Assembly: GCA_024280775.1 (NCBI GenBank)
Contig: JAJRPM010000012.1
Span: 62,001 to 126,000 of the forward strand
Direction of reading: 5' to 3'
Length of the DNA stretch: 64,000 nucleotides
Origin: Candidatus Zixiibacteriota bacterium
GTDB lineage: Bacteria > Zixibacteria > MSB-5A5 > GN15 > JACZUZ01
The notes beneath the pieces were generated by a model, which worked only from the letters and a program-made list of their open reading frames with translations, made no database searches and was not told the DNA's origin. A program made the position numbers and the translations under genes. Every line of letters begins with the position of its first letter. The first letter of the stretch is position 1. Of the stretch, positions 19,745-32,012 are shown one piece after another.

Positions 19745-22060
19745 ATGAAATACAACGACAACGACCTCAACAACTCAATGTTCAATTTCGATTTCATCAG
19801 GGCGGATGAATCGAGTCAAAAGCAAGAAACGCCTGAGCCAATACATAGTGACACCAGCAAAGCTGTGAATGGAGTTGGTTCGGTGAAGGAATTTCAGAAG
19901 CTGACAACCGATTCAGATTCCAACAAGGGAAACGTTGCCTGTTCGATAGATGAGTTAGTAAAATTTGATGTTGAAATGGAAAAGGACGCTACATCCTATT
20001 TCACTCTCACTACCATGCAAGAGTTCAATATTGCCCCGGCGCATTTCAACTCCGCGAACGCCACGCTAACTGTTCTCTGCAAAGGACATCCCGATGAAGT
20101 CCTCTCGCTTAGATTGGAGGCCATGTCGATTTACCACAAGCCGGTGCGTATAGTGTTACAATCAGAAACACTGGATATAATTACATCTCTCATCGAGCGT
20201 ATCAAGAATAGTTCCATTGAAGAGGATAGCTCTACAGAGCCTTGGGATGACAATGTAAATACAAGCGCCACTGGAATTGAAAACTGCGAGTTAAATGACT
20301 CTTTTGCATGTGAGATATTCTTGGATGCAGAAAGCAAGTTTAACGTTGATGCCAGTAGTGATGATGTTTTTCAGCAACACGATTCGCCCGGTGAAACTTT
20401 TGAGGAAATGGCGCATACGGACGAGACTCAAGCTTCTGCTAATTCAGTTACCAGAAGAGCGCTGTTTGTGACTCCTGAGGCTTCTCTTAGTCCGCATTTG
20501 TTGTTTGCGATTCATGCAGAGAAAATCAGCCCGGTTATTGCATCTGATTGTGAGGAGGCGCTCGAAAAGATATCTAGCCAAGACATCAGTGAGGCGCTGA
20601 TTCATAACTCGCTTAGAGGCGCATCGCAAGAACTGGCGCTTGCGTTAGGCAAACGTCCCAACCCGATACCGGTGCGATATTTCAATTCAGAAGCCGGGCT
20701 ACTTGCCGGCGAGGTGTATGACCATCAATTGCTGGAGCTTTGCGAAAAGAGCCTTCTTTTTGGCGCCTATCTTCACAACACGCAAGACGCCGCAAGCTCC
20801 CTGGAGGATGCTCTGGATACACATGGCGCTGCAGTCGCCAAATTGTGTCGTGAGTTTTCAGAACACTACTCTCTGGCGCCTAATCTGCACCTTGCGCTAC
20901 TCTCTGCGGCCTACTGGCATGACTTGGCCAGATGCGATCTAAAAAATCCGGAAGACTACCAACATAGTGATATTATTTCTCTCTCTGCTAAGAGGATGGA
21001 GGCGCTTGGGTATCCCGCCGAGGTGATTAGTCTGCTGAGAGTGATGGCGAGTCCTAATCAAGCGCCTGAAAGCACAAATAGTGACACTCTGCTCGCTGGT
21101 AACATACTGGCTGTGTCCAATCACTATTGCCACAATTGGTTGAGCGATGCGCCATTTATCAGCTCTCAGATATCCGAGATGCGTAATGACATGCAGGACT
21201 TCAAAAACAACCTGTCACTTCCAGAAGTAGCCGACAAGTTATTTGACATCATACCGATAGACTCGGAAGCCGAACTCAATCAAACTGATGTTTTCAATGT
21301 GCATATTCTGGATATAACTTCTGACAGCGAATCTAACTACAGCGTTAAAATCTGTGATGCCTTACAGAGCGCTGGTTTCGACTCTACTGTTTCGCATACA
21401 GCCAATGAATGTGTGGAGAGCTGGATAGATTCAAAACCGCAGGCGCTAATGATATTGCAGTCAGGTAGCGTCCAACAAATGACTGATACTCTCTTCACGC
21501 TGGCTTTGGGAGGGATACAGTTTGACCGTGTTCTTACTATAGCGCTAACCACTGCGGACAAATTGGATCAAGCTTTTTGGTCGATAAAACACGGACTTGA
21601 AGATGTATTTCCGTTATCAATCAGTCCTGATGTTCTAATTGCAAAAATCTCTCGGGCGCAGAAACGTCAACAGGACGTCGACGACGCATGCCTGTCAATT
21701 CTTCAGGATATGGGCACTCACGGCTCATTGGAGGATATGAATCTAATAAAGTTGCTTGAGGCCTCACGTGATAGTTCAAAACCACTGAGGCTCAGCGCTA
21801 CTGCCCGCGGAAGACAATTCGTCGCCTATGTGCACAACAATACCGTCATCAGCGCCACCTGCGATGAATACACCGGCATTGACGCTATTGCCGCCAGCAT
21901 TGCCTGGTCAAAAGGGATTTGGAGTATCGACCCGATTGATGAAAATGAATTGCCACCGTCTAATCTGGGGATGAAGCTTGATTCAGTAATGCTGGAGGCT
22001 TGTTTGCAGTGTGACAACTCAGCCCGTAACTCATCTGCAGGCCCTGCCAGGAATAGCTGA
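19745..22060 (+). CDS. Multidomain signalling protein: MshEN-like, receiver-like, HD-like and DUF4388 segments
   Basis: No single family recognised; 771 residues without membrane segments. After a disordered 80 residues, about 88-155 resembles the T2SSE/MshEN N-terminal domain (IAPAHFNSANATLTVLCKG), which binds cyclic-di-GMP in some proteins. About 238-330 looks like a divergent receiver domain, about 360-440 like an HD domain with AYWHDLARCD and a further His in YQHSD but no HHExxDGxGYP, about 520-640 like a second receiver fold, and about 655-735 like DUF4388/PATAN (GSLEDMNLIKLLE). Phosphoacceptor Asp residues are not obvious. Convergent with the usher gene, 12 nt apart. Assignments are by pattern only. 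Confidence 0.75.
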   Translation: MKYNDNDLNNSMFNFDFIRADESSQKQETPEPIHSDTSKAVNGVGSVKEFQKLTTDSDSNKGNVACSIDELVKFDVEMEKDATSYFTLTTMQEFNIAPAHFNSANATLTVLCKGHPDEVLSLRLEAMSIYHKPVRIVLQSETLDIITSLIERIKNSSIEEDSSTEPWDDNVNTSATGIENCELNDSFACEIFLDAESKFNVDASSDDVFQQHDSPGETFEEMAHTDETQASANSVTRRALFVTPEASLSPHLLFAIHAEKISPVIASDCEEALEKISSQDISEALIHNSLRGASQELALALGKRPNPIPVRYFNSEAGLLAGEVYDHQLLELCEKSLLFGAYLHNTQDAASSLEDALDTHGAAVAKLCREFSEHYSLAPNLHLALLSAAYWHDLARCDLKNPEDYQHSDIISLSAKRMEALGYPAEVISLLRVMASPNQAPESTNSDTLLAGNILAVSNHYCHNWLSDAPFISSQISEMRNDMQDFKNNLSLPEVADKLFDIIPIDSEAELNQTDVFNVHILDITSDSESNYSVKICDALQSAGFDSTVSHTANECVESWIDSKPQALMILQSGSVQQMTDTLFTLALGGIQFDRVLTIALTTADKLDQAFWSIKHGLEDVFPLSISPDVLIAKISRAQKRQQDVDDACLSILQDMGTHGSLEDMNLIKLLEASRDSSKPLRLSATARGRQFVAYVHNNTVISATCDEYTGIDAIAASIAWSKGIWSIDPIDENELPPSNLGMKLDSVMLEACLQCDNSARNSSAGPARNS

Positions 22061-22072
22061 GTTCTTTGGCGC

Positions 22073-24781
22073 CTAATTATTGTCGGTTTCTACTTCTTTC
22101 AAGGCTGGAGAAAGCAGAAAGTCGATAGCTTCAATTGTCGAGCCACCCGGTTCGGGTTTGATTTCGAATTCAATTGACTGTGGGGTAGATTTGTAGCCAT
22201 AGGATTCAAGTTGACTAGGCTCCACATATGCGCGATAGCGTCCGGGTAGAAGACCCAGGTGATAGTATTCGCCATCATTAAAAGTTGCAACCTGAGTCAT
22301 AATATCACGCGAGATATTAAAAATCACTAACTTGATTCCTCCAACTCCAACCGGGCCAACATCGGTAGTTCTTCTAATAGAGCCACTGATGTCACTAGCG
22401 GTTACAACCGGAACCTTGATTGAGGTAACCATATTGGGATTAACTGCGACACGATAGTTCTCATGCAGTGGCTTCAACTGCGGATCATCAAGGCTGTACT
22501 CATCAATTTTGACAATGTATTCATCATAGGGCCGCAATCTGCTGTAGTAATACAAGTCATCACCACGTTTAGGCGCTCCACCTGCGCCGTCGATTTTTGC
22601 TCGAAGTCCTTTCAGCTCTTCTTCTCCTTCATCTTGCTGACCATTGTAGTTGTCATCAAGAAACGGCTTCACCACCGCAGCGCCGAGACCGACGCCATTG
22701 TTTCTATCAAAATAGACCGAGCCGGAATTCTGATCATAGTGAATTGAGCCGCGATATAGTTGATTGACACTTACGCCACCCGCCGATGTAATAGAGCGCG
22801 AGGTAAGCGAGGCGAAATCAGTTAGCATACTGAATGTCAGCATGGCGGTATTTGTTTTCAAGGCCGGGTTGCGTTCAAGCGCAAGAGTCACCTGCCCGGT
22901 TTTAAGGACACGACGACTTAAGAAAAGTCCATACTTAGTCAGCCCGCCTCTGGAGTGATTGTATTCAATACGTAGTTGAGGCCGCAATACTCGGGAGAGA
23001 GTGATAGTTGCAAACAACTGGCTGGAGATATCGTCTGAGCTGGAAACCAGAGATGAATTGATTTTGTACTTTCCCAGATAGTTCAGATTTATGCGAGGCA
23101 GTGATGCATTGAATCCATAGTTCATATTAGTGGTTTTGAAAGTCGGGAATTTGTCTATGCTGGTATGGAAGCGCACACCTACATTTTGATTCCAAATCTT
23201 GAACGGGCTGGAAACTGAAACTGTCAACTTGTCTATTTGCCGCAAGATATTTCGTTTTGAGGTTGAATCGAAATTTGTGTAGTTAACTGCAAGGTTTATG
23301 TTCGACTGGGTGTAACTAAGCCCAAAGTTTTTTTCATTCTTGGGGGACATAGATGTATTGAGTGTCAAATTGGACAACAGTTGAAGCGCCAACTCACCGG
23401 TGAACAATGTCTTTTCGTTTTCTGTCGGGGTCAAAGGCAAGTCCGCTCCAGCGCCGATGGTTAGATTCGACATTAGGCCATAAGAAACGCTGGCGTTGCT
23501 ATAGACACCTGAAGTATCGAAGATTTCTTGTTCCCCTACGCCAATATCATAATCGAATTGCCCACTAGGAATGAGATTGAACGGTATCCGACGATAACGC
23601 TCCTCTGTGCGCACTTCACCGTTGGGCCCGTACATTTTGAGAATAATCACCGATGCGCCATAGAACACATCCAGATTAAAGTCATATCTCCCTTCGGCAT
23701 CAGTGGTGGTAAAGTCCTTCAGCCGACCATCGACATATAACTCAACCTCCCAATTCGGCCCTAAATCTCCCGAGAGATTGACCGTCTCGAAGAACTTTCT
23801 TTGTGTTAGGGGCTTATTGGTGATTCGCCCACCGCGAATAGCTCGTGACAGACTTGATCCTACAAATACATCGCCGAGTTCCACTTGTGATAGCGCTGCT
23901 TTGTTATCAAAAAAACGTCGCCAGCGTATACGTAGTTGTTTGGAGTCGAAACCCTGCCGGGTATCACCTGCCATAGCGACATCAATATCCCCGCCGCCGA
24001 GCATTCCACCAATTGTAAGATTAGCGAATTGCTCTGCTCCACCGATTGGGTTTGCGGAAAGTGACCAGTCTGCCACTCCTGCGGCGAGATAACCACTCTC
24101 ACGAGCCAGAGTATGCACATCAGATACTTCAACCTCTTTGGCGCGTAGTTTCTTGTGAGCTAACTCTCGCTTGATTCTTTGGTAAGTGGGGAAACTTTTG
24201 TCCAGCGGCAGAAACACACGAAGCTCACCGAAATAGAATTTCATCGCGAATCCGAAATAGGGTTCGAATAAATCGACCCGCAAGTAGATTTCACCATTGG
24301 AGAAATGGAATTCAGAGCCAGCTAGAGGACCATCATAGAACGGAGAGCGAGCTTTGTGTCGTGTGATATCCAGTTCGAATTTTTCGGATTTTGAATTTAA
24401 GTAACCGGTTATACGTCCCTTGCTCTCAGAGAGTGAAGCATGCATGCCCAAGACGTCCAGGACTTTTAGAACCGGCATATAGATATCTGTTCCGTCGTAC
24501 TGTGCAAACAGGTCAACATTCAGAAGTCGTTGCACTTCAAAGTTGACCACAATTTCTTCGAACTCAGGTTGTTCAAACTCAGGAGTTGTTTCAAGATTAG
24601 ATGTAGTTGGTGAGACAGTAGCGCTGGTTTCCTGTGGTTGGCCAAAAACTGTAGTGTGACTTGATAGCACAGAAATAGCTATCACCGTTAGCAACAATTT
24701 TGGGCTGGAGACGCCGAACCCAAAGCGCTGCTGTCGATGCGCTCGTAAGAGAAAATCTCTGATGGAATGCGCTATTGTCAT
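22073..24781 (-). CDS. Outer-membrane usher-like protein of a chaperone-usher cluster
   Basis: Predicted pore through which subunits are assembled into a surface fibre. After a signal peptide comes an N-terminal domain (residues about 60-150), then a long beta-rich region typical of the barrel, interrupted by a plug-like Ig segment (EVELYVDGRLKDFTTTD, with TTDAEGRYDFNL). The C-terminus has an SdrD-like loop FLDDNYNGQQDEGEEE and a carboxypeptidase-regulatory/CnaB-like domain ending at PGRYRAYVEP. A GTG at 24796 is an alternative start; the ATG at 24781 has GAGG 5 nt upstream. Starts 31 nt after the chaperone gene. It is a divergent, alternative-type usher, not the classical FimD form. Confidence 0.85.
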   Translation of the reverse strand: MTIAHSIRDFLLRAHRQQRFGFGVSSPKLLLTVIAISVLSSHTTVFGQPQETSATVSPTTSNLETTPEFEQPEFEEIVVNFEVQRLLNVDLFAQYDGTDIYMPVLKVLDVLGMHASLSESKGRITGYLNSKSEKFELDITRHKARSPFYDGPLAGSEFHFSNGEIYLRVDLFEPYFGFAMKFYFGELRVFLPLDKSFPTYQRIKRELAHKKLRAKEVEVSDVHTLARESGYLAAGVADWSLSANPIGGAEQFANLTIGGMLGGGDIDVAMAGDTRQGFDSKQLRIRWRRFFDNKAALSQVELGDVFVGSSLSRAIRGGRITNKPLTQRKFFETVNLSGDLGPNWEVELYVDGRLKDFTTTDAEGRYDFNLDVFYGASVIILKMYGPNGEVRTEERYRRIPFNLIPSGQFDYDIGVGEQEIFDTSGVYSNASVSYGLMSNLTIGAGADLPLTPTENEKTLFTGELALQLLSNLTLNTSMSPKNEKNFGLSYTQSNINLAVNYTNFDSTSKRNILRQIDKLTVSVSSPFKIWNQNVGVRFHTSIDKFPTFKTTNMNYGFNASLPRINLNYLGKYKINSSLVSSSDDISSQLFATITLSRVLRPQLRIEYNHSRGGLTKYGLFLSRRVLKTGQVTLALERNPALKTNTAMLTFSMLTDFASLTSRSITSAGGVSVNQLYRGSIHYDQNSGSVYFDRNNGVGLGAAVVKPFLDDNYNGQQDEGEEELKGLRAKIDGAGGAPKRGDDLYYYSRLRPYDEYIVKIDEYSLDDPQLKPLHENYRVAVNPNMVTSIKVPVVTASDISGSIRRTTDVGPVGVGGIKLVIFNISRDIMTQVATFNDGEYYHLGLLPGRYRAYVEPSQLESYGYKSTPQSIEFEIKPEPGGSTIEAIDFLLSPALKEVETDNN

Positions 24782-24812
24782 CGTCACCTCACTCACCGAG
24801 GGGAGAGCTGAT

Positions 24813-25778
24813 TTACTGAACTGCTAGAGCTCTTGAGAGATCGTTGCCCGGGAGAATATCTTCAGCGGGAATATCCTTACGTCCCGATGTAGAAATCCCG
24901 ATTTCGACGTGATACGGTCTGGTGAAATCTCCATCGGTCAACGGAAGCTCAAGGCGACGTGTCAATTGGCGGTAGACAGCCAGTTGCACTGAAGTGTGGC
25001 TGATTTCTTTATCTGATGCATCGAGTAAACGACAGGCAAGAGTCCCAACATAGGAGCAATTGCTATTGGTTTTCATCGCCACCATTACGGATACTTTTTC
25101 ACCCTCTATTGTGGCGCTAGTCTCAGTGAGTTCCAGCTGTGGGGTCAGATTGCCTTTGCGATATTTTAGCATAATCGCAGTTTGCATAATCATGTTTAGC
25201 TTGGTGGTGATAGCGCCCTCTTCGGTAGGGGCAGGCAAGCTGGTTTCACCATCCTGCGAGCGGACTACCACGCGAGACCAGTATTCGCCCTCGGGTAGGT
25301 CTTTTGGGGGTCTGGCGCGAAATCGTACAACCTGCGAGCTATTAGGCTGAAGAACCATCTTGCGGGGGAAGGCTTTCACCCAGCCCAAAGCAGAATTTGG
25401 ATCAGTTACCGAACTATCGCTGAGGCGAACTGTGACATTCCCCAAGCTATCAGAAGTAGGGAGTCCAAAACTGAAGAACACTGTGACTTCCTGCGGCTTG
25501 TCAGTCGGATTCTGCACAGTTATTCGTCCAGTTCGTCCTTTGTCGGATATGAATACGACAGTTGGCGCAACCAGGACACCGGCTCCCGCACGTAGGGCGA
25601 GAATCGACAGGAATAACAGGCTCAGTAAAGTGTATTTACCCAACAGAAATCCCCGTCGAGTAGTGTTGGTACAACACTCGCCGGGGATTTCCTTCAGATT
25701 TGAAGGCACATTACTTAAAGGCTTTTGTGTCAAAGACTTTTCTGTCAAAAGCTCTGTGTTCAGCATGGTACTTAACAT
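24813..25778 (-). CDS. Periplasmic pilus chaperone (PapD-like)
   Basis: Two Ig-like domains that would hold pilus subunits in the periplasm by donor-strand complementation. The mature domain begins with AGVLVAPTVVFISD; the strand pattern RTGRITVQNPTDKPQEVTV and the G1-strand region VLQPNSSQVVRFRARPP are typical of fimbrial chaperones. With the ATG at 25778 the signal peptide would be preceded by about 45 polar residues. Much of that stretch is encoded by a long perfect-looking hairpin (25646-25691), and an in-frame TTG at 25643 with GGGGA upstream would give a normal signal peptide starting at the LGKYTLLSLL segment. The true start is therefore uncertain. Confidence 0.85.
   Translation of the reverse strand: MLSTMLNTELLTEKSLTQKPLSNVPSNLKEIPGECCTNTTRRGFLLGKYTLLSLLFLSILALRAGAGVLVAPTVVFISDKGRTGRITVQNPTDKPQEVTVFFSFGLPTSDSLGNVTVRLSDSSVTDPNSALGWVKAFPRKMVLQPNSSQVVRFRARPPKDLPEGEYWSRVVVRSQDGETSLPAPTEEGAITTKLNMIMQTAIMLKYRKGNLTPQLELTETSATIEGEKVSVMVAMKTNSNCSYVGTLACRLLDASDKEISHTSVQLAVYRQLTRRLELPLTDGDFTRPYHVEIGISTSGRKDIPAEDILPGNDLSRALAVQ
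25646..25691 (-). promoter_or_regulatory. Long stem-loop at the start of the chaperone gene
   Basis: GAAATCCCCG-T-CGAGT-A-GTGTTG pairs with CAACAC-T-CG-C-CGGGGATTTC around a loop of a few bases, giving a stem of about 20 bp with two mismatches. No T run follows, so it is not a standard terminator. It lies between the subunit genes and the chaperone/usher genes and covers a possible Shine-Dalgarno (GGGGA). Confidence 0.75.
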
Positions 25779-25921
25779 CCTATGTTTTCTTTTGGTGTTT
25801 CACCCGTCACCGACATCCATGCGGCTCTGGTCGTTTCTTCACGAAACAAATATGTCACGTTTTGGAATCTAGTTGTACAAAAACTTTACCCCTAAATTTC
25901 CGGTACTCCTACTTCACTAAA

Positions 25922-26482
25922 TCAGGTGCCGTTGTAAGCGACAGTCAAGATAATATCGCCTGTGTATGCTCCTGCAGTCTGATCAACAGTCGGAAGAACT
26001 TTTCCACCGAGGAACAAAGCCGCCTGGCCGCCGCCACCCATGGTGGTAGCCGCATTGATGTTATGCGGATCGGTATTCTGCCAACCAGTTCCGAAGGTTG
26101 TCGGAGTTGCGTTGGTTGTGGAATCCACAGAAGCGTCAGTGGCGCTAAAGGAAATAACCATACGATCGTCGCCTGTGGCCGTAGACATATAGTCTGGCAA
26201 CTGCATGTACATCGAAAGACCAGAGAGTCCCTGACCAGTGATTGTAAAAATGCCAGCCGCGGCGTTTGCATTTGAAATGGATTTACTCACGCCCTGAAAT
26301 ACATTGCCGAAAACCAAAGCGGCTGTCGAGGTCACTACCAATACAGCTTGTACCGAAGCTGTGGCAGAACCATTGGCAACATCCTGTGCATTGGCAACTG
26401 ACGGTTTCAACACACTGGCAAACCCTACGATAGTAGCGATGCTCACTAGGCGTGCTAGACTCTTACTAATTGAATTTCTCAT
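25922..26482 (-). CDS. DUF4402-like secreted subunit 1 (putative pilin)
   Basis: Putative structural subunit of the chaperone-usher fibre. Signal peptide with cleavage near VANAQ (about residue 33). The mature protein starts with an alternating hydrophobic strand (ATASVQAVLVVTS) followed by the DUF4402 core ALVFGNVFQG, and ends with GAYTGDIILTVAYNGT, with an aromatic residue close to the C-terminus as in donor-strand pilins. Close paralogue of the next gene. Ribosome site GGAGAG before ATG 26482. Confidence 0.85.
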   Translation of the reverse strand: MRNSISKSLARLVSIATIVGFASVLKPSVANAQDVANGSATASVQAVLVVTSTAALVFGNVFQGVSKSISNANAAAGIFTITGQGLSGLSMYMQLPDYMSTATGDDRMVISFSATDASVDSTTNATPTTFGTGWQNTDPHNINAATTMGGGGQAALFLGGKVLPTVDQTAGAYTGDIILTVAYNGT

Positions 26483-26627
26483 TACTCTCTCTCCCCCGGG
26501 GAAACCCTAGATTGGAACTAATATGTATGTTTACATTCTATTTTCTGTGTACTGCTTCTTGTAACTCAAATACTATTTCTTTGCGTTTTGCGCTCGTCAC
26601 CGGCTAACCAGCTCAGGAGACTAAACA

Positions 26628-27188
26628 TCAGGTGCCGTTATACGAAACGGTCAATATGACGTCTCCGGTATATGCTCCGGCTGTCTGGTCAACGGTCGGC
26701 ATAACTTTTCCACCGAGGAAAATTGCCGCCTGTCCACCGCCACCCATTGTTGTAGCGGAAGCAAAATTATGCGGATTGGTATTCTGCCAACCAACTCCAA
26801 AAGCCGCCGGGTTAACATTGGTGGTCGAATCAACTGAGGCGTCAGTTGTGCTAAATGCTACCACCAAACGATCATCGCCAGTTGCTGTAGACAAGTAGTC
26901 GGGCAACTGCATAAAAATCGCCAAGCCAGCTAATCCCTGACCGGTGATAGTAAAGACACCTGCATTCGCATTAGAATTGGCGATTGATGTTGGCACGCCT
27001 TGAAAGACTGTACCAAAGGCCAAAGCGCTGGTAGAGGTGACTGTCAAAACTGCCTGCACCGTGGCTGTTGCTTGACCTACTGCAACATCCTGGGCTTTCA
27101 CATTCCCTGACGACAGTCCCAGAGCAACCGTACAAATGGCGATAAAAAGCGCCTTCGGCCTGAAAATCCGTTTCAACTCTGCGTTCAT
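26628..27188 (-). CDS. DUF4402-like secreted subunit 2 (putative pilin)
   Basis: Nearly collinear with subunit 1 over the whole mature region (VQAVLTVTSTSALAFGTVFQGV, STATGDDR, TTMGGGGQAA, GAYTGDVILTVSYNGT), so a recent tandem duplication. Signal peptide ends near VKAQ. An upstream ATG at 27197 would sit one base from GGAG; the ATG at 27188 has GGAG 10 nt upstream and is preferred. No Cys in the mature part. Confidence 0.85.
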   Translation of the reverse strand: MNAELKRIFRPKALFIAICTVALGLSSGNVKAQDVAVGQATATVQAVLTVTSTSALAFGTVFQGVPTSIANSNANAGVFTITGQGLAGLAIFMQLPDYLSTATGDDRLVVAFSTTDASVDSTTNVNPAAFGVGWQNTNPHNFASATTMGGGGQAAIFLGGKVMPTVDQTAGAYTGDVILTVSYNGT

Positions 27189-27661
27189 TGCGTTCATACT
27201 CCGATGTTTAAACCTGTTATATCAACTTCTACTGCCAGGACTCTCTCACTGATGGAAGAGCTCAATAAATGGGCTATCCGACATACGTGATAAGATTTCG
27301 TCCACACTCTGTTTATTCGACACACAGTTCAAAACCTTTACAGTTCAGAACAACAATTTATTGCAAAGTGCAATACCGCCAATTGCGAAATGAATTTTCG
27401 GGGGCTGTCCTGATTGAGTTATTTGTATACCGAAGAAATGAAGAGGCAGACCAATTGAGAGCTTTCGCGCCGATTTGACTCGTATCTAATTTAGCGCCAA
27501 CGAGTTGCTCGTATTGAGCCAGACCTCAGGAGTTTTCAATACTGCGGGGATTGTGCCCAGGATGACATTGCTAGCTGGATGAGATGAATAGAGGAACAAT
27601 GCGAGAAAGGAAATAGTGGAGAATACTCAGTTGTTTCAATTTGAAAAGAGTCGAAATCAGA
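27189..27661. other. Long spacer inside the subunit gene cluster
   Basis: 473 bases separate subunits 2 and 3 on the minus strand, far more than other gaps in the cluster. I see no convincing gene (a 69-codon plus-strand frame at 27269 has no recognisable features) and no terminator. A second promoter for the distal half of the cluster may lie here. Confidence 0.5.
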
Positions 27662-28264
27662 TCAGGTTCCGTCATAGGCCACGCTGACAATAACATCACC
27701 GCTATAGGCTCCGGCCTTTTGATTCACTGCAGGAATTGCCCGACCGCCTATATATATGTTTGTCTGTCCACCCGAACCGATTACCACCGCCGCTGGAACA
27801 TTGCGCGGGTTTACGTTCTGCCATCCATCACCTGCTACTACAGTCGAGGGAGTAGTGTTGTTGGTGTCTACTGTGGCGTCTGTAGGGGAAAAGGCGATGG
27901 TCATACGGTCTGAGCCATCGGCAAGCGCCATATAATCTGGCATGACCATTGAGATAGTCAGACCAGCTGACGGGGCGCCGGTGATATTGAATATTCCGGA
28001 GAAGGCGTCTACATTGTTACCTATAGACTTCGCCACACCTTGAAACATGTTTCCGAATTGCAGATTCTGAGAGGCAAGAACCGCTAAAGTCGCTTGCACA
28101 TTGGCAATGGCAAGACCATTGGCCACATCCTGCGCTTTGGCCTCTTTCGAAAAGCCACAAGCAATACCCAGTGTCAAAATAAGAGCGCTCGCAGTTGAGA
28201 AGGCCTTGATACGAAATCTACCGGCGTTATCATATTGCGATATTTGGTTCATTGTTGCGTTCAT
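27662..28264 (-). CDS. DUF4402-like secreted subunit 3 (putative pilin)
   Basis: Same architecture as subunits 1 and 2: signal peptide ending at AKAQ, then DVANGLAIANVQATLAV, LQFGNMFQGVAKSI, and the C-terminal GAYSGDVIVSVAYDGT. The frame is open for 60 codons further upstream (to 28444), but the ATG at 28264 has GAAGGAG ten bases before it and begins a normal signal peptide, so it is chosen; a second ATG follows at 28252. More diverged than subunits 1 and 2. Confidence 0.82.
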   Translation of the reverse strand: MNATMNQISQYDNAGRFRIKAFSTASALILTLGIACGFSKEAKAQDVANGLAIANVQATLAVLASQNLQFGNMFQGVAKSIGNNVDAFSGIFNITGAPSAGLTISMVMPDYMALADGSDRMTIAFSPTDATVDTNNTTPSTVVAGDGWQNVNPRNVPAAVVIGSGGQTNIYIGGRAIPAVNQKAGAYSGDVIVSVAYDGT

Positions 28265-28511
28265 TGTTGCAGCGCTCCTTCGGAGTGTATATTCATGTAT
28301 AGCTCGTACGACAAAGGCGTTCTTAGTACATGATTCGACTACTACTTTCGGAGGTTTACGGCGCTGAATCCACTTTGTCGCCTGTAGTAGAAATCTGTTA
28401 CAGAGGTGAGCGTTAGATAGAGCGCCTCCAATAGCTTTGCGCAAATCCTATAGCAAAATGCTATGGATATTGCGCCATACTGCGTTCAATAAAACGTCAG
28501 TTGACTATTGG

Positions 28512-29030
28512 CTAATTTCCGGTATACACAACTGTCATCACTATTACGGCAGTGTAATTCCCGGCGACTTGGCTGAGTTTTGGAATCGCCATTCCGCCTA
28601 GCCAAAGTGTGATGCCATTGGAGCCTAATCGATAGGTAATTGTGTGCCAGGGGTCAATATTATCTAACGAAGGAGCGGCCTGGTCGGGAGTGGCGCTGGA
28701 ATCCAGGGCCGCATCGGTTTCTGTGAAAACCAACTGCATGTTACTGCCAAGATCATTCATGAAAGTTGGGAGTGACAGGTCTATGGTCAGCTCCAACCCT
28801 GCGGTTCCAGAAATCAGAAATTCCGCGGCGCCACCGGCTATTCGTTTGCTAACTGTCTTTGGTATACCTGGGAAGATATTACCGAAGACTAGATTGTTGT
28901 TCACGGTAATATTCTGGCTTCTGACAAGTGTAGGCGCTGAATATATCGTTAAGGAGCTAAGGAGAACCAAGCGAAAAATCATTCGCCTCGACCTGCGTCC
29001 TCTAATCCTTACCAGCTTCGCTTTATTCAT
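28512..29030 (-). CDS. DUF4402-like secreted subunit 4 (putative pilin)
   Basis: Shorter variant. Basic N-terminus, hydrophobic segment and possible cleavage at VRSQ, then NITVNNNLVFGNIFPGIPKTV, i.e. the DUF4402 core with a shortened N-terminal strand, and the C-terminal GNYTAVIVMTVVYTGN. ATG at 29030 has only a weak ribosome site; an internal ATG at residue 17 with GAGGCGA upstream would give a shorter signal peptide. The short N-terminal extension might mark an end subunit. Confidence 0.78.
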   Translation of the reverse strand: MNKAKLVRIRGRRSRRMIFRLVLLSSLTIYSAPTLVRSQNITVNNNLVFGNIFPGIPKTVSKRIAGGAAEFLISGTAGLELTIDLSLPTFMNDLGSNMQLVFTETDAALDSSATPDQAAPSLDNIDPWHTITYRLGSNGITLWLGGMAIPKLSQVAGNYTAVIVMTVVYTGN

Positions 29031-29116
29031 GTTCTCGCCCTGTGTTACTTACACCACAAAAGGAAAGATTAGATGAATCGGTGTTGTTAGTCAAAGATAA
29101 ACTGCGAGCACTAAAC

Positions 29117-29509
29117 TCAGTTTTCGGTGAGAATGATTGTCAGCAGGGAAGGCTCTGAAGTGGAATGCTTCGAGAAAAGTTCGTTAATCAGTTTATTATT
29201 CAAATAGTCTATTGCGATAAATCCGTGATCATTAGCGCGCAGAGTAGTGGCATATTGGTTTCCAGAGCTTTCCACAAATATGTATGCCGATGTATTGCGC
29301 GGCGCGAGCATGAAACGTCCGGTATGATTAGAGAATCCGGTCACTCCAAGTGGCTGTGCGACAGAGGCAGTTGCGCGAATTGAGGCGCTTTGGCTTCTGG
29401 CGTTCAGACCACGAGGAAATAGAGCGAGGGTCGCAAAAGCTAGCGCTCCCAAAAGGGGGACAAGTATAGGCTGTCTAATAGAAGAGAAAGTTGAAGCAGG
29501 ATGTTTCAT
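29117..29509 (-). CDS. Small secreted protein in the pilus cluster, atypical subunit
   Basis: 130 residues. The signal peptide and first mature strand (SQSASIRATASVAQPLGVTG) resemble subunit 6 (QESASIQATATIIAG), but the DUF4402 LxFGxxxxG core is absent; instead there is a short beta-rich region ending in SLLTIILTEN. It may be a truncated or specialised subunit (adaptor, tip or terminator). The frame extends 12 codons upstream to 29545, but ATG 29509 with GGAAA upstream fits better. Confidence 0.7.
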   Translation of the reverse strand: MKHPASTFSSIRQPILVPLLGALAFATLALFPRGLNARSQSASIRATASVAQPLGVTGFSNHTGRFMLAPRNTSAYIFVESSGNQYATTLRANDHGFIAIDYLNNKLINELFSKHSTSEPSLLTIILTEN

Positions 29510-29648
29510 TTTGGTTTCCGAATAACGCTTTGATACAAATATCAAAGCCGCTACTTCAAGAAACCGCAGAAAGCAAATCTGTCAAGCGCAAATTTTGAGC
29601 GCTTTAACAGAGGCAAACCAGAATAGGATGAAGCTCGATAATCTTAAA

Positions 29649-30185
29649 TCAATTACCGGTATAGGCGATTGTCATTGTTACATCGGAGGCATAGTCCCCG
29701 CCGGTTTGGGTCAATCGAGGCATCACTGTCCCGCCTATCCATAGATTCATTGTCCCGACACCGCTGACTCTTCTGGCAACCGGTCCATTGGGGTCAAATA
29801 CCCCTGCCGGAGCCGCCTGACCTCCACCTGTTCCATCGTCATAGGATGCGTCAGTGGAGTTAAAGACCATTCGCATACCAGTAGGGTTTGTGGTGTGTTG
29901 CAAAGAATCTGGCAGAGTAAGGGTAACCGAAATCTCCGAATTAACAGTTCCGTTGCTGATTTGCCATTCACCTGCAAAACCGCTGGTGGCTTTATCTACC
30001 GATTTGTTTACTCCCGGCAGGACTGTCCCGAAAACCAGGTCATTGGTTCCGATTATTGTGATACCGGCGATAATTGTGGCGGTGGCCTGAATTGAGGCGC
30101 TTTCCTGAGCCTGCGCCGTTTGCCTATTGAGTATCCCAAAAGCTCCCGCCAACAAGAGAGCTACTACTATTGCCTGTCTTTTCAT
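29649..30185 (-). CDS. DUF4402-like secreted subunit 6 (putative pilin), first gene of the cluster
   Basis: Signal peptide MKRQAIVVALLLAGAF ending near AQAQ, strand ASIQATATIIAGITI, core NDLVFGTVLPGVNKSV, and C-terminal GDYASDVTMTIAYTGN. The start at ATG 30185 has AGAGGA just upstream; the open frame continues to 30266 but that would bury the signal peptide. As the 5'-most gene of the minus-strand run its promoter should lie in 30186-30490. Confidence 0.82.
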   Translation of the reverse strand: MKRQAIVVALLLAGAFGILNRQTAQAQESASIQATATIIAGITIIGTNDLVFGTVLPGVNKSVDKATSGFAGEWQISNGTVNSEISVTLTLPDSLQHTTNPTGMRMVFNSTDASYDDGTGGGQAAPAGVFDPNGPVARRVSGVGTMNLWIGGTVMPRLTQTGGDYASDVTMTIAYTGN

Positions 30186-30497
30186 GATTCCTCTTCCAAT
30201 CTCAAAATTCATTTTCACCAGAAAACTAATCCCGGATTGGTCAAAGCAAGGTCGGCGCCCGACCATCTAAACACCTACCCACCAGCCGCTTAGGCGCAGT
30301 TCACTTATTGAATAGAGTAGAGATTGATTCCCATATTATGGGATTCATCCGATAGCTCATCAGGTGTTTCCCATTGCCTGATTCGCGCTCATTCCCGTCG
30401 AAACCCAAATCGCTGATTTCCGGCCAGCTCATTAAGTGTGGGGATTGTCCGATACAAATAAGTGGGAGCTGTTCAAAAACTGGACAGCAAAGAAGAA

Positions 30498-32012
30498 ATG
30501 AAAATAGCAAGAAACAGATCACAGGTTGGCAAGCGCTATTCCTTGACGGGTCTCATTTTGATGATGGCCCTAGTTGTGGGGCTGGCTAGCTCTGTGTCGT
30601 CTCAGCAATTGCTTTGGTCCGGGAATTACGGCGGCCAGTTCAATGAGTCTGGCAACTCCGGCTCTATGACCGCCGACGGAGGATTCATCGCGATTGGATC
30701 AACATTCTCCTTCGGGGCCGGAGATCATGATATATATATAGTAAGAACTGATTCACTCGGAGTTGCGCTTTGGAATAGAACCTATGGCGGGGTTTTGACC
30801 GACTATGGCTATGACATTCGTCAAACAGCCGATGGTGGATTCATTGTAGTGGGGATGACAAAATCGTATGGCGAGCCGAATGGCGATATACTCTTGCTAA
30901 AAATTGATTCTCTGGGAGCGGAGGTGTGGTCTAAGACATTTGGCGGGGCCAAACGTGATGAGGGTTGGTCTGTCAGATTGACCAGTGACGGCGGATTCAT
31001 TATTTGCGGTATCACCAATTCATTCGGCGCAGGATATTCGGATATGTATTTTATCCGCACCGATTCATTGGGCAACACACTTTGGAGCAAAACATTCGGT
31101 GGGCCCGGTGGTGACACTGGCTGTGCGGTGCGCATCGCCGCTGACGGTTCATTTTATGGAATCGGCTCAACCGGGTCATTCGGATTGGGCTATAGCAGTC
31201 TCTATGTAGTTCACATCTCTGCCGCAGGTGATTCACTTTGGGCAAACACTTATGGCGACAGGGCAGATTTTGGCTACTCGCTGGAAATCACCCGTGACGG
31301 AGGATTGGCTCTGGCTGGCTCTTCGCAAGGTGATATGTATTTGGTGCGCACTGATGCGACTGGCTTTGTGATGTGGCAGACTACTTTCGGCGGTTCGAAA
31401 GACGATAGGGCGTATACTGTAAGTGAAACACCTGATGGTGGATTTCTTATCGCCGGTGTGACTGAATCATTTGGCGCAGGGAAGATTGACATTCAGGTTT
31501 TGCGAGTAGATAGAAGTGGTTGGAAAATCTGGTCCGGGACTTACGGTGGAAGTAGCTCGGATTACTGTCGCTCAATGACTCTGATAAATAATCAGGATGT
31601 AATTGTTGTCGGGCACACCTGGTCGTTTTCGTCAGGTGGTTCTGATATGTATGTGCTAAAAGTTCAGGGAGATGCATTAACTGATGTGCATCAAGTGGAA
31701 ACTCCGGTATTACCGACAGACTACGCGCTCGGAGCCAACTATCCGAATCCATTCAATCCCGAGACAACAATTCCTTTCGAATTATCTCGCGCGGCAAAAG
31801 TTAAAGTCGCTATCTACAATATCCTTGGACAACGTTTGATTACTTTAGTCGATGAACGTCTCAGTCCTGGCTCCTATACTGTCCAATGGAACGGCAAGAC
31901 CGACGGCGAAGTCGGCGTCGCCAGCGGTGTGTATTTCTATCGCCTGGATGCAGTATCCGATAACAACACCAAACTTGTCTCCGCTACGCGCAAGATGGTC
32001 TTACTTAAGTAA
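30498..32012 (+). CDS. Secreted seven-bladed propeller protein with C-terminal FlgD/T9SS-like sorting domain
   Basis: After a signal peptide (cleavage near VSSQQ) seven repeats of about 50 residues follow, each with the pattern W-x-x-T-Y/F-GG ... DGGF-x-x-x-G-x-T-x-S-F-G ... D-x-Y-x-x-R-x-DSLG, consistent with a beta propeller. The last 80 residues begin NYPNPFNPETTIPFEL and end RKMVLLK: the FlgD-type Ig/sorting domain used by many FCB bacteria for secretion. The frame also opens at GTG 30462, but ATG 30498 with AAAGAAG upstream starts a normal signal peptide. Function of the propeller unknown. Confidence 0.88.
   Translation: MKIARNRSQVGKRYSLTGLILMMALVVGLASSVSSQQLLWSGNYGGQFNESGNSGSMTADGGFIAIGSTFSFGAGDHDIYIVRTDSLGVALWNRTYGGVLTDYGYDIRQTADGGFIVVGMTKSYGEPNGDILLLKIDSLGAEVWSKTFGGAKRDEGWSVRLTSDGGFIICGITNSFGAGYSDMYFIRTDSLGNTLWSKTFGGPGGDTGCAVRIAADGSFYGIGSTGSFGLGYSSLYVVHISAAGDSLWANTYGDRADFGYSLEITRDGGLALAGSSQGDMYLVRTDATGFVMWQTTFGGSKDDRAYTVSETPDGGFLIAGVTESFGAGKIDIQVLRVDRSGWKIWSGTYGGSSSDYCRSMTLINNQDVIVVGHTWSFSSGGSDMYVLKVQGDALTDVHQVETPVLPTDYALGANYPNPFNPETTIPFELSRAAKVKVAIYNILGQRLITLVDERLSPGSYTVQWNGKTDGEVGVASGVYFYRLDAVSDNNTKLVSATRKMVLLK

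Follow-up and report, generated by a model that had tools for sequence, protein, structure and literature searches.

Gene content and conservation of the locus

We analysed a 64,000-nucleotide stretch of DNA (the window, in whose coordinates all positions are given) from a genome of Candidatus Zixiibacteriota, a phylum of the Fibrobacterota-Chlorobiota-Bacteroidota (FCB) group. Eight consecutive genes on its minus strand, between positions 22073 and 30185, code for six small secreted proteins (S1 to S6, in gene order), a PapD-like chaperone and an usher; their starts and signal peptides are plausible. A first-pass annotation of this DNA had proposed the same eight genes, and all of them were found on the same strand. 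Chaperone-usher pili are among the best-studied bacterial adhesion organelles. On the evidence presented below we consider it quite likely that the operon is a chaperone-usher pathway of a class unrecognised in the databases searched, which would assemble a surface fibre from pilins resembling DUF4402 (PF14352), a family without assigned function.

The order S1, S2, S3, S4, S5, S6, chaperone, usher is repeated in more than 30 genomes of the phylum whose neighbourhoods were read; in some loci S1, S2 or S4 is lost, or S3 is duplicated. A search for the gene set in other genomes had been suggested in the first-pass annotation: it recurs in about half of the 133 Zixiibacteriota genomes, and the clustering in the window is therefore far beyond chance. 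The usher alone has a homologue in 64 of these 133 genomes and in 44 of the 85 genera (protein search). Among 131 genomes of the phylum, 46 contain a DUF4402 match above the curated cut-off. The usher accompanies DUF4402 in 55 of the 56 DUF4402-positive genomes (Fisher P about 7e-26); in the 56th, which lacks an usher, the match is a partial one inside a 4732-residue frame.

Some Zixiibacteriota carry a second, smaller type of cluster, in which two or three DUF4402 genes accompany those for a chaperone and an usher (L051, L052, L053 and L054), and two genomes (G034 and G035) have both this widespread smaller type and the eight-gene one. Proteins of the smaller type are readily recognised by Pfam, with a DUF4402 match at 8e-20 and a chaperone (L051) that matches PapD_N above the cut-off (3e-6). 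Because the window proteins match these bridge proteins in phmmer searches (chaperone, E = 1e-9; usher, E = 9e-43), they can be joined to known families despite their divergence. Pfam gives no chaperone match for the chaperone of the window, NCBIfam gave nothing useful for any of the eight operon proteins, and Rfam yielded no match between window positions 22000 and 31000.

The usher

The last gene of the operon (22073 to 24796, minus strand) codes for a protein of 907 amino acids. Structure models were built with AlphaFold2 as single chains, for the usher and for mature S5. The usher model (45 sequences) has a predicted local distance difference test score (pLDDT) of 81. An N-terminal domain (about residues 80 to 230) is followed by six strands (237 to 326), a separate strand-rich insert (336 to 404) and another eighteen strands (414 to 688), so that the predicted secondary structure comprises 24 barrel strands, between about residues 237 and 688, with a plug between strands 6 and 7. 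FimD and PapC are built on this same plan. When the model was compared with the PDB using Foldseek, the first 17 matches were all FimD or PapC (E-values from 1.2e-27 to 5.6e-13). The region from about 700 to 897 consists of SdrD_B-like domains, with an SdrD_B match above the Pfam cut-off, in line with the divergent usher with C-terminal SdrD/CnaB-like domains that had been predicted. On its modelled fold, the product of this gene is an outer-membrane usher, and the fold confirms that assignment.

The Pfam model of ushers (PF00577) matches in none of 131 genomes of the phylum, whereas the Escherichia coli control was positive; such a match is a criterion of detection and not of mechanism. Usher homologues on plasmids are labelled 'carboxypeptidase regulatory-like domain-containing protein' in RefSeq. 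Two observations concern individual homologues. In a sister species (G075, L032:10007-12664) a stop lies within the usher frame, and this copy may be inactive or contain a sequencing error. The usher homologue of a Marinobacter (L129:7908-11075) has a C-terminal SPOR domain (4.5e-14).

The chaperone

Upstream of the usher lies the gene for the predicted periplasmic chaperone (24813 to 25778, minus strand). Its Pro138 and Arg152 are invariant in all 21 near homologues. In the wider chaperone family, drawn from many phyla, all 73 sequences have the proline at the aligned position and 64 of the 73 have the arginine, with three more having lysine. The invariant proline is a rule of the chaperone-usher superfamily (PMC4654587). 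In CsuC the corresponding pair is Pro59 and Arg89, that is, the superfamily proline and the strand F1 arginine that marks non-classical chaperones (Arg89 of CsuC/EcpB). EcpB appears as a weak profile match that covers precisely the stretch with the proline and the arginine. The window chaperone also has a conserved Y269 and R274; their order is opposite to that of Arg174 and Tyr196 of CsuC, and the alignment with CsuC is not reliable in this region. In the wider family, an arginine occupies the place of the classical Arg8 in 61 of 68 sequences, but without the lysine. Judged by its residues, the chaperone is not classical, and by the main marker it is non-classical, as the first-pass annotation had held for the system.

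The DUF4402-like subunits

An LxFGxxxxG core and a Y-x-G-N/T end are found exactly in S1 (29649 to 30185), S3 (28512 to 29030), S4 (27662 to 28264), S5 (26628 to 27197) and S6 (25922 to 26482), all on the minus strand, as had been described earlier. The start of S4 was moved from 28444 to 28264, where a ribosome-binding site (AAGGAG, 28280 to 28275) precedes it. All five proteins match DUF4402 below the cut-off (E-values from 0.04 to 2e-4; scores of 15.0 to 22.6 bits, the cut-off being 25.2). Elsewhere, subunits of this class are genuine members of the family, since 66 of 71 match it at E ≤ 0.01, the best at 1e-33.

The model of mature S5 (131 sequences) has a pLDDT of 94.9. Its residues 1 to 16 are outside any strand, the first strand spans residues 17 to 22, and just three residues, without any strand, lie beyond the last one (146 to 151). 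Of the 50 best matches that Foldseek gave in the PDB, 40 are chaperone-usher pilins (FimI, PapE, Caf1, CsuA/B, FimA and CfaB), with E-values from 1.8e-3 (the best, at a probability of 1.00) to about 3e-2. The free segment also has a distinctive composition. In 88 subunits its mean hydropathy is 2.4 at positions 6, 8 and so on to 18, versus 0.2 at positions 5, 7 and so on to 17; the even positions are G6, A8, A10, V12, L16 and V18 and the odd ones mostly T, Q or S. This alternation fits what is expected of a donor strand. The subunit is probably an incomplete immunoglobulin (Ig)-like fold with a free N-terminal arm, on the strength of a model whose structural E-values are borderline. Complete Ig folds with no missing strand, which the first-pass annotation had named as evidence against its proposal, were not seen: the S5 model is pilin-like and its arm lies outside the strands.

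Such an arm had been attributed to all five proteins in the first-pass annotation, and here the annotation has to be amended: S3 lacks it, whereas S2, which had been set apart as atypical, has one. From the usual cleavage site before a glutamine to LxFG, S1, S4, S5 and S6 have 23 residues in 88 of 107 cases; in S3 the same interval is 8 residues in 21 of 30, nearly all the others having 7 to 13. The absence from S3 of the arm carried by its siblings therefore holds across the phylum. In one genus (L041, L043 and L067) the armless S3 gene is duplicated in tandem, which would give two tip-like subunits.

S2 (29117 to 29509, minus strand) is short and has no Pfam match. It is conserved at its ends, with the arm SASIxATATVxxPLG and a last strand VTLIxTEN; its middle is hypervariable and can barely be aligned. 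A gene with the same position and the same ends is found in 15 other loci.

A promoter-like element and a divergent neighbour

In most operons a long gap precedes S5, and within it lies a conserved element with the consensus GTTAAG-N4-TGNAC-N5-GACGATT in the aligned gaps. In the window it reads GTAAAGGTTTTGAACTGTGTGTCGAAT (27315 to 27341, minus strand) and separates S1-S4 from S5-S6-chaperone-usher. With no mismatch allowed, the element occurs exactly once per genome, and only upstream of S5, in 10 of 12 genomes. In 20 of 33 loci a looser pattern finds it ahead of the paired pilin genes; this pattern gave 23 forward versus 4 reverse matches in 604 kb. Its two blocks are spaced in a way that recalls sigma-28 promoters, and the genome encodes FliA. 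The possibility of a flagellar sigma-28 promoter was considered and rejected: the three flagellin genes are without the element, and there is one copy per genome. For these reasons we treat it as an operon-specific promoter-like element.

On the other side of S1, transcribed divergently from it, is a gene on the plus strand (30462 to 32012) for a secreted repeat protein of beta-propeller type with a type IX secretion tail (Por_Secre_tail, 3.7e-6). It occupies this divergent position in 16 of 31 loci, namely 16 of the 23 in which S1 comes first and none of the 8 without S1 (one-sided hypergeometric P about 8e-4). The genome of the window encodes SprA, and type IX secretion is therefore likely to be present in the host. 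The propeller protein is a possible partner of the operon, and a functional tie to the fibre is hypothetical. It is the sole frequent neighbour; no conserved regulator genes were found flanking the operon. Downstream of the usher and convergent with it, the gene at 19745 to 22060 has a weak DUF4388 match. New with respect to the first-pass annotation are the missing arm of S3, the element before S5 and the propeller gene.

Related clusters in other phyla

A scan of GTDB genomes led to 124 relatives of the usher, and the neighbourhoods of the best 80 were examined. Chaperone and DUF4402 genes lie beside the usher in 63 of these 80, and in 50 of the 55 for which the upstream sequence sufficed. 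The proteobacterial hosts of usher relatives belong to Alpha-, Gamma- and Deltaproteobacteria (Sphingobium, Marinobacter, Vibrio splendidus and Desulfobotulus). Others are Lujinxingia, Nitrospinota, Nitrospirae, Fibrobacter, Elusimicrobia, Eisenbacteria, Thermoanaerobaculia, Balneolia, Ignavibacteriae and Latescibacterota. Altogether, clusters of chaperone, DUF4402 and usher genes related to that of the window occur in about a dozen phyla. The first-pass annotation had taken DUF4402 genes apart from chaperone and usher genes as a sign against its proposal; this was not seen, since 55 of the 56 Zixiibacteriota genomes with DUF4402, and most loci of other phyla, have it together with the usher. 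Neither the name DUF4402 nor the chaperone-DUF4402-usher arrangement was found in the open-access literature, subscription papers being outside the search.

Comparison with known systems

The operon resembles classical pili (type 1 Fim, P pili and Caf1) in its 24-strand usher with a plug, its pilin-like, incomplete Ig subunit, its PapD-like chaperone and the presence of one subunit without an arm. It differs from them in that the usher has no PF00577 match and ends in SdrD_B-like domains, that the chaperone of the window type is without the Arg8/Lys112 pair, and that the subunits are DUF4402-like and give no match to the Pfam Fimbrial family. With alternative pili (Ecp and CFA/I) it shares the chaperone arginine and the weak profile match to EcpB. 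Two distant ushers also have weak TcfC and CooC_C matches; in contrast, the window usher has neither, and the subunits are again of the DUF4402 kind. The archaic Csu system of Acinetobacter baumannii is similar in the proline and non-classical arginine of its chaperone and in the appearance of CsuA/B among the fold matches of the subunit, but the subunits of the operon are not of the spore-coat-U family. Classical and alternative systems are confined to beta- and gammaproteobacteria, and archaic ones are reported from Proteobacteria, Cyanobacteria and Deinococcus-Thermus (PMC4654587); unlike the latter, the class to which the operon belongs occurs in many other phyla.

Alternative interpretations

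Several results weigh against the reading of the operon as a chaperone-usher pathway. Searched against the PDB, the sequence profiles of the usher and the subunits give no significant match to a known usher or pilin. The best PDB match of the chaperone profile is the WxL-interacting protein EfmWxLIP1 (E = 0.009), with FimC and PapD at 0.1 to 0.2, and Val74 and Met203 stand (aligned by eye) where classical chaperones have Arg8 and Lys112. None of the structural E-values of S5 is ≤ 0.001, its template modelling (TM) scores range from 0.3 to 0.56, and ten GH123 sandwich domains are within its top 50 matches. Finally, residues 11 to 20 of the arm have high pLDDT, and part of the arm may pack within the monomer model. 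These borderline matches and the well-predicted parts of the arm would suit small proteins that are self-sufficient, Ig-like surface or secreted proteins, held by a PapD-like holdase and exported singly through the barrel, with no strand exchange and no fibre. We regard this as very improbable. We know of no role for a FimD-like barrel with a plug other than strand-exchange assembly; moreover, the loss of precisely the arm in one subunit per operon and the pairing of chaperone and subunit families across phyla both fit the assembly of a polymer. Apart from these considerations, the EfmWxLIP1 match may reflect a distant link between Gram-positive WxL systems and the chaperones of chaperone-usher pathways.

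If the operon does assemble a fibre, it could still be a member of the archaic (sigma) class that has diverged too far for the available models, and not a separate class. The diagnostic arginine of the chaperone and the CsuA/B match are in keeping with this, and of all classes the archaic is the most widespread (PMC4654587). However, the subunits match DUF4402 only, none of them the spore-coat-U family; because the pilin family differs, these data do not allow the operon to be placed in the archaic class. PF00577 recognises no usher of the phylum, and the arginine at the Arg8 place in the wider chaperone family is reportedly missing in archaic chaperones. The best fold matches of the usher are the classical FimD and PapC, no archaic usher being among the matches listed (their presence in the PDB was unchecked). 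Archaic membership thus seems unlikely to us, and the operon probably represents an unrecognised class of chaperone-usher pilus, whether as a fourth class or as a distant offshoot of the archaic class. As for the order of subunits, S3 might have a shortened arm because it caps or anchors the base of the fibre, or the fibre might start with S2, which is the more unusual protein and has the hypervariable middle that one might expect of an adhesin. We find this rather doubtful. With no arm to donate, a subunit can accept a strand but has no means of joining on to the one before it, which leaves the first position; S2 retains its arm. Single-domain capping subunits without an N-terminal extension are known, namely AggB and AafB (PMC5029526). 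From its sequence, S3 is probably the tip or initiating subunit.

A model of fibre assembly and its implications

We propose the following pathway, in which donor-strand exchange, fibre formation and adhesion are inferred. Signal peptides would take the subunits into the periplasm. Each would there present an Ig-like domain that, according to the model and the alignment, is missing its last strand, and an arm of 15 to 16 residues with alternating small and hydrophobic residues (G-x-A-x-A-x-V). The chaperone would lend a strand, and its conserved arginine may clamp the C-terminus of the subunit. The chaperone strand would then give way, at the 24-strand usher, to the arm of the incoming subunit, as in homologous systems. 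The armless S3 would start the fibre as its tip, and S1, S2 and S4 may be minor or adaptor subunits. S5 and S6 are likely to form the rod because they have their own promoter-like element and adjoin the assembly genes. The product would probably be an adhesive fibre.

The earlier proposal of a distinct, non-classical fibre with DUF4402-like proteins as its pilins is thus supported by the fold of S5, by co-occurrence, by the fold of the usher and by the chaperone arginine. A more far-reaching picture can be offered tentatively, as a possibility that we do not favour as a whole: a fourth chaperone-usher class that spans about a dozen phyla and escapes the usher model, with DUF4402 as its pilin family and, in Zixiibacteriota, an armless DUF4402 tip, a hypervariable mini-pilin (S2) and a divergent propeller partner exported by type IX secretion, two unrelated secretion routes building one surface structure.

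Our interpretation would extend the chaperone-usher mechanism to the FCB group and to several other phyla. DUF4402 proteins would gain a testable and probable function through their place in a pilus pathway, and the generic label carried by usher homologues would be replaced by a function. Since the wider chaperone family has both the non-classical arginine and an arginine where the classical anchor lies, the finding may also bear on which features of these chaperones are ancestral.

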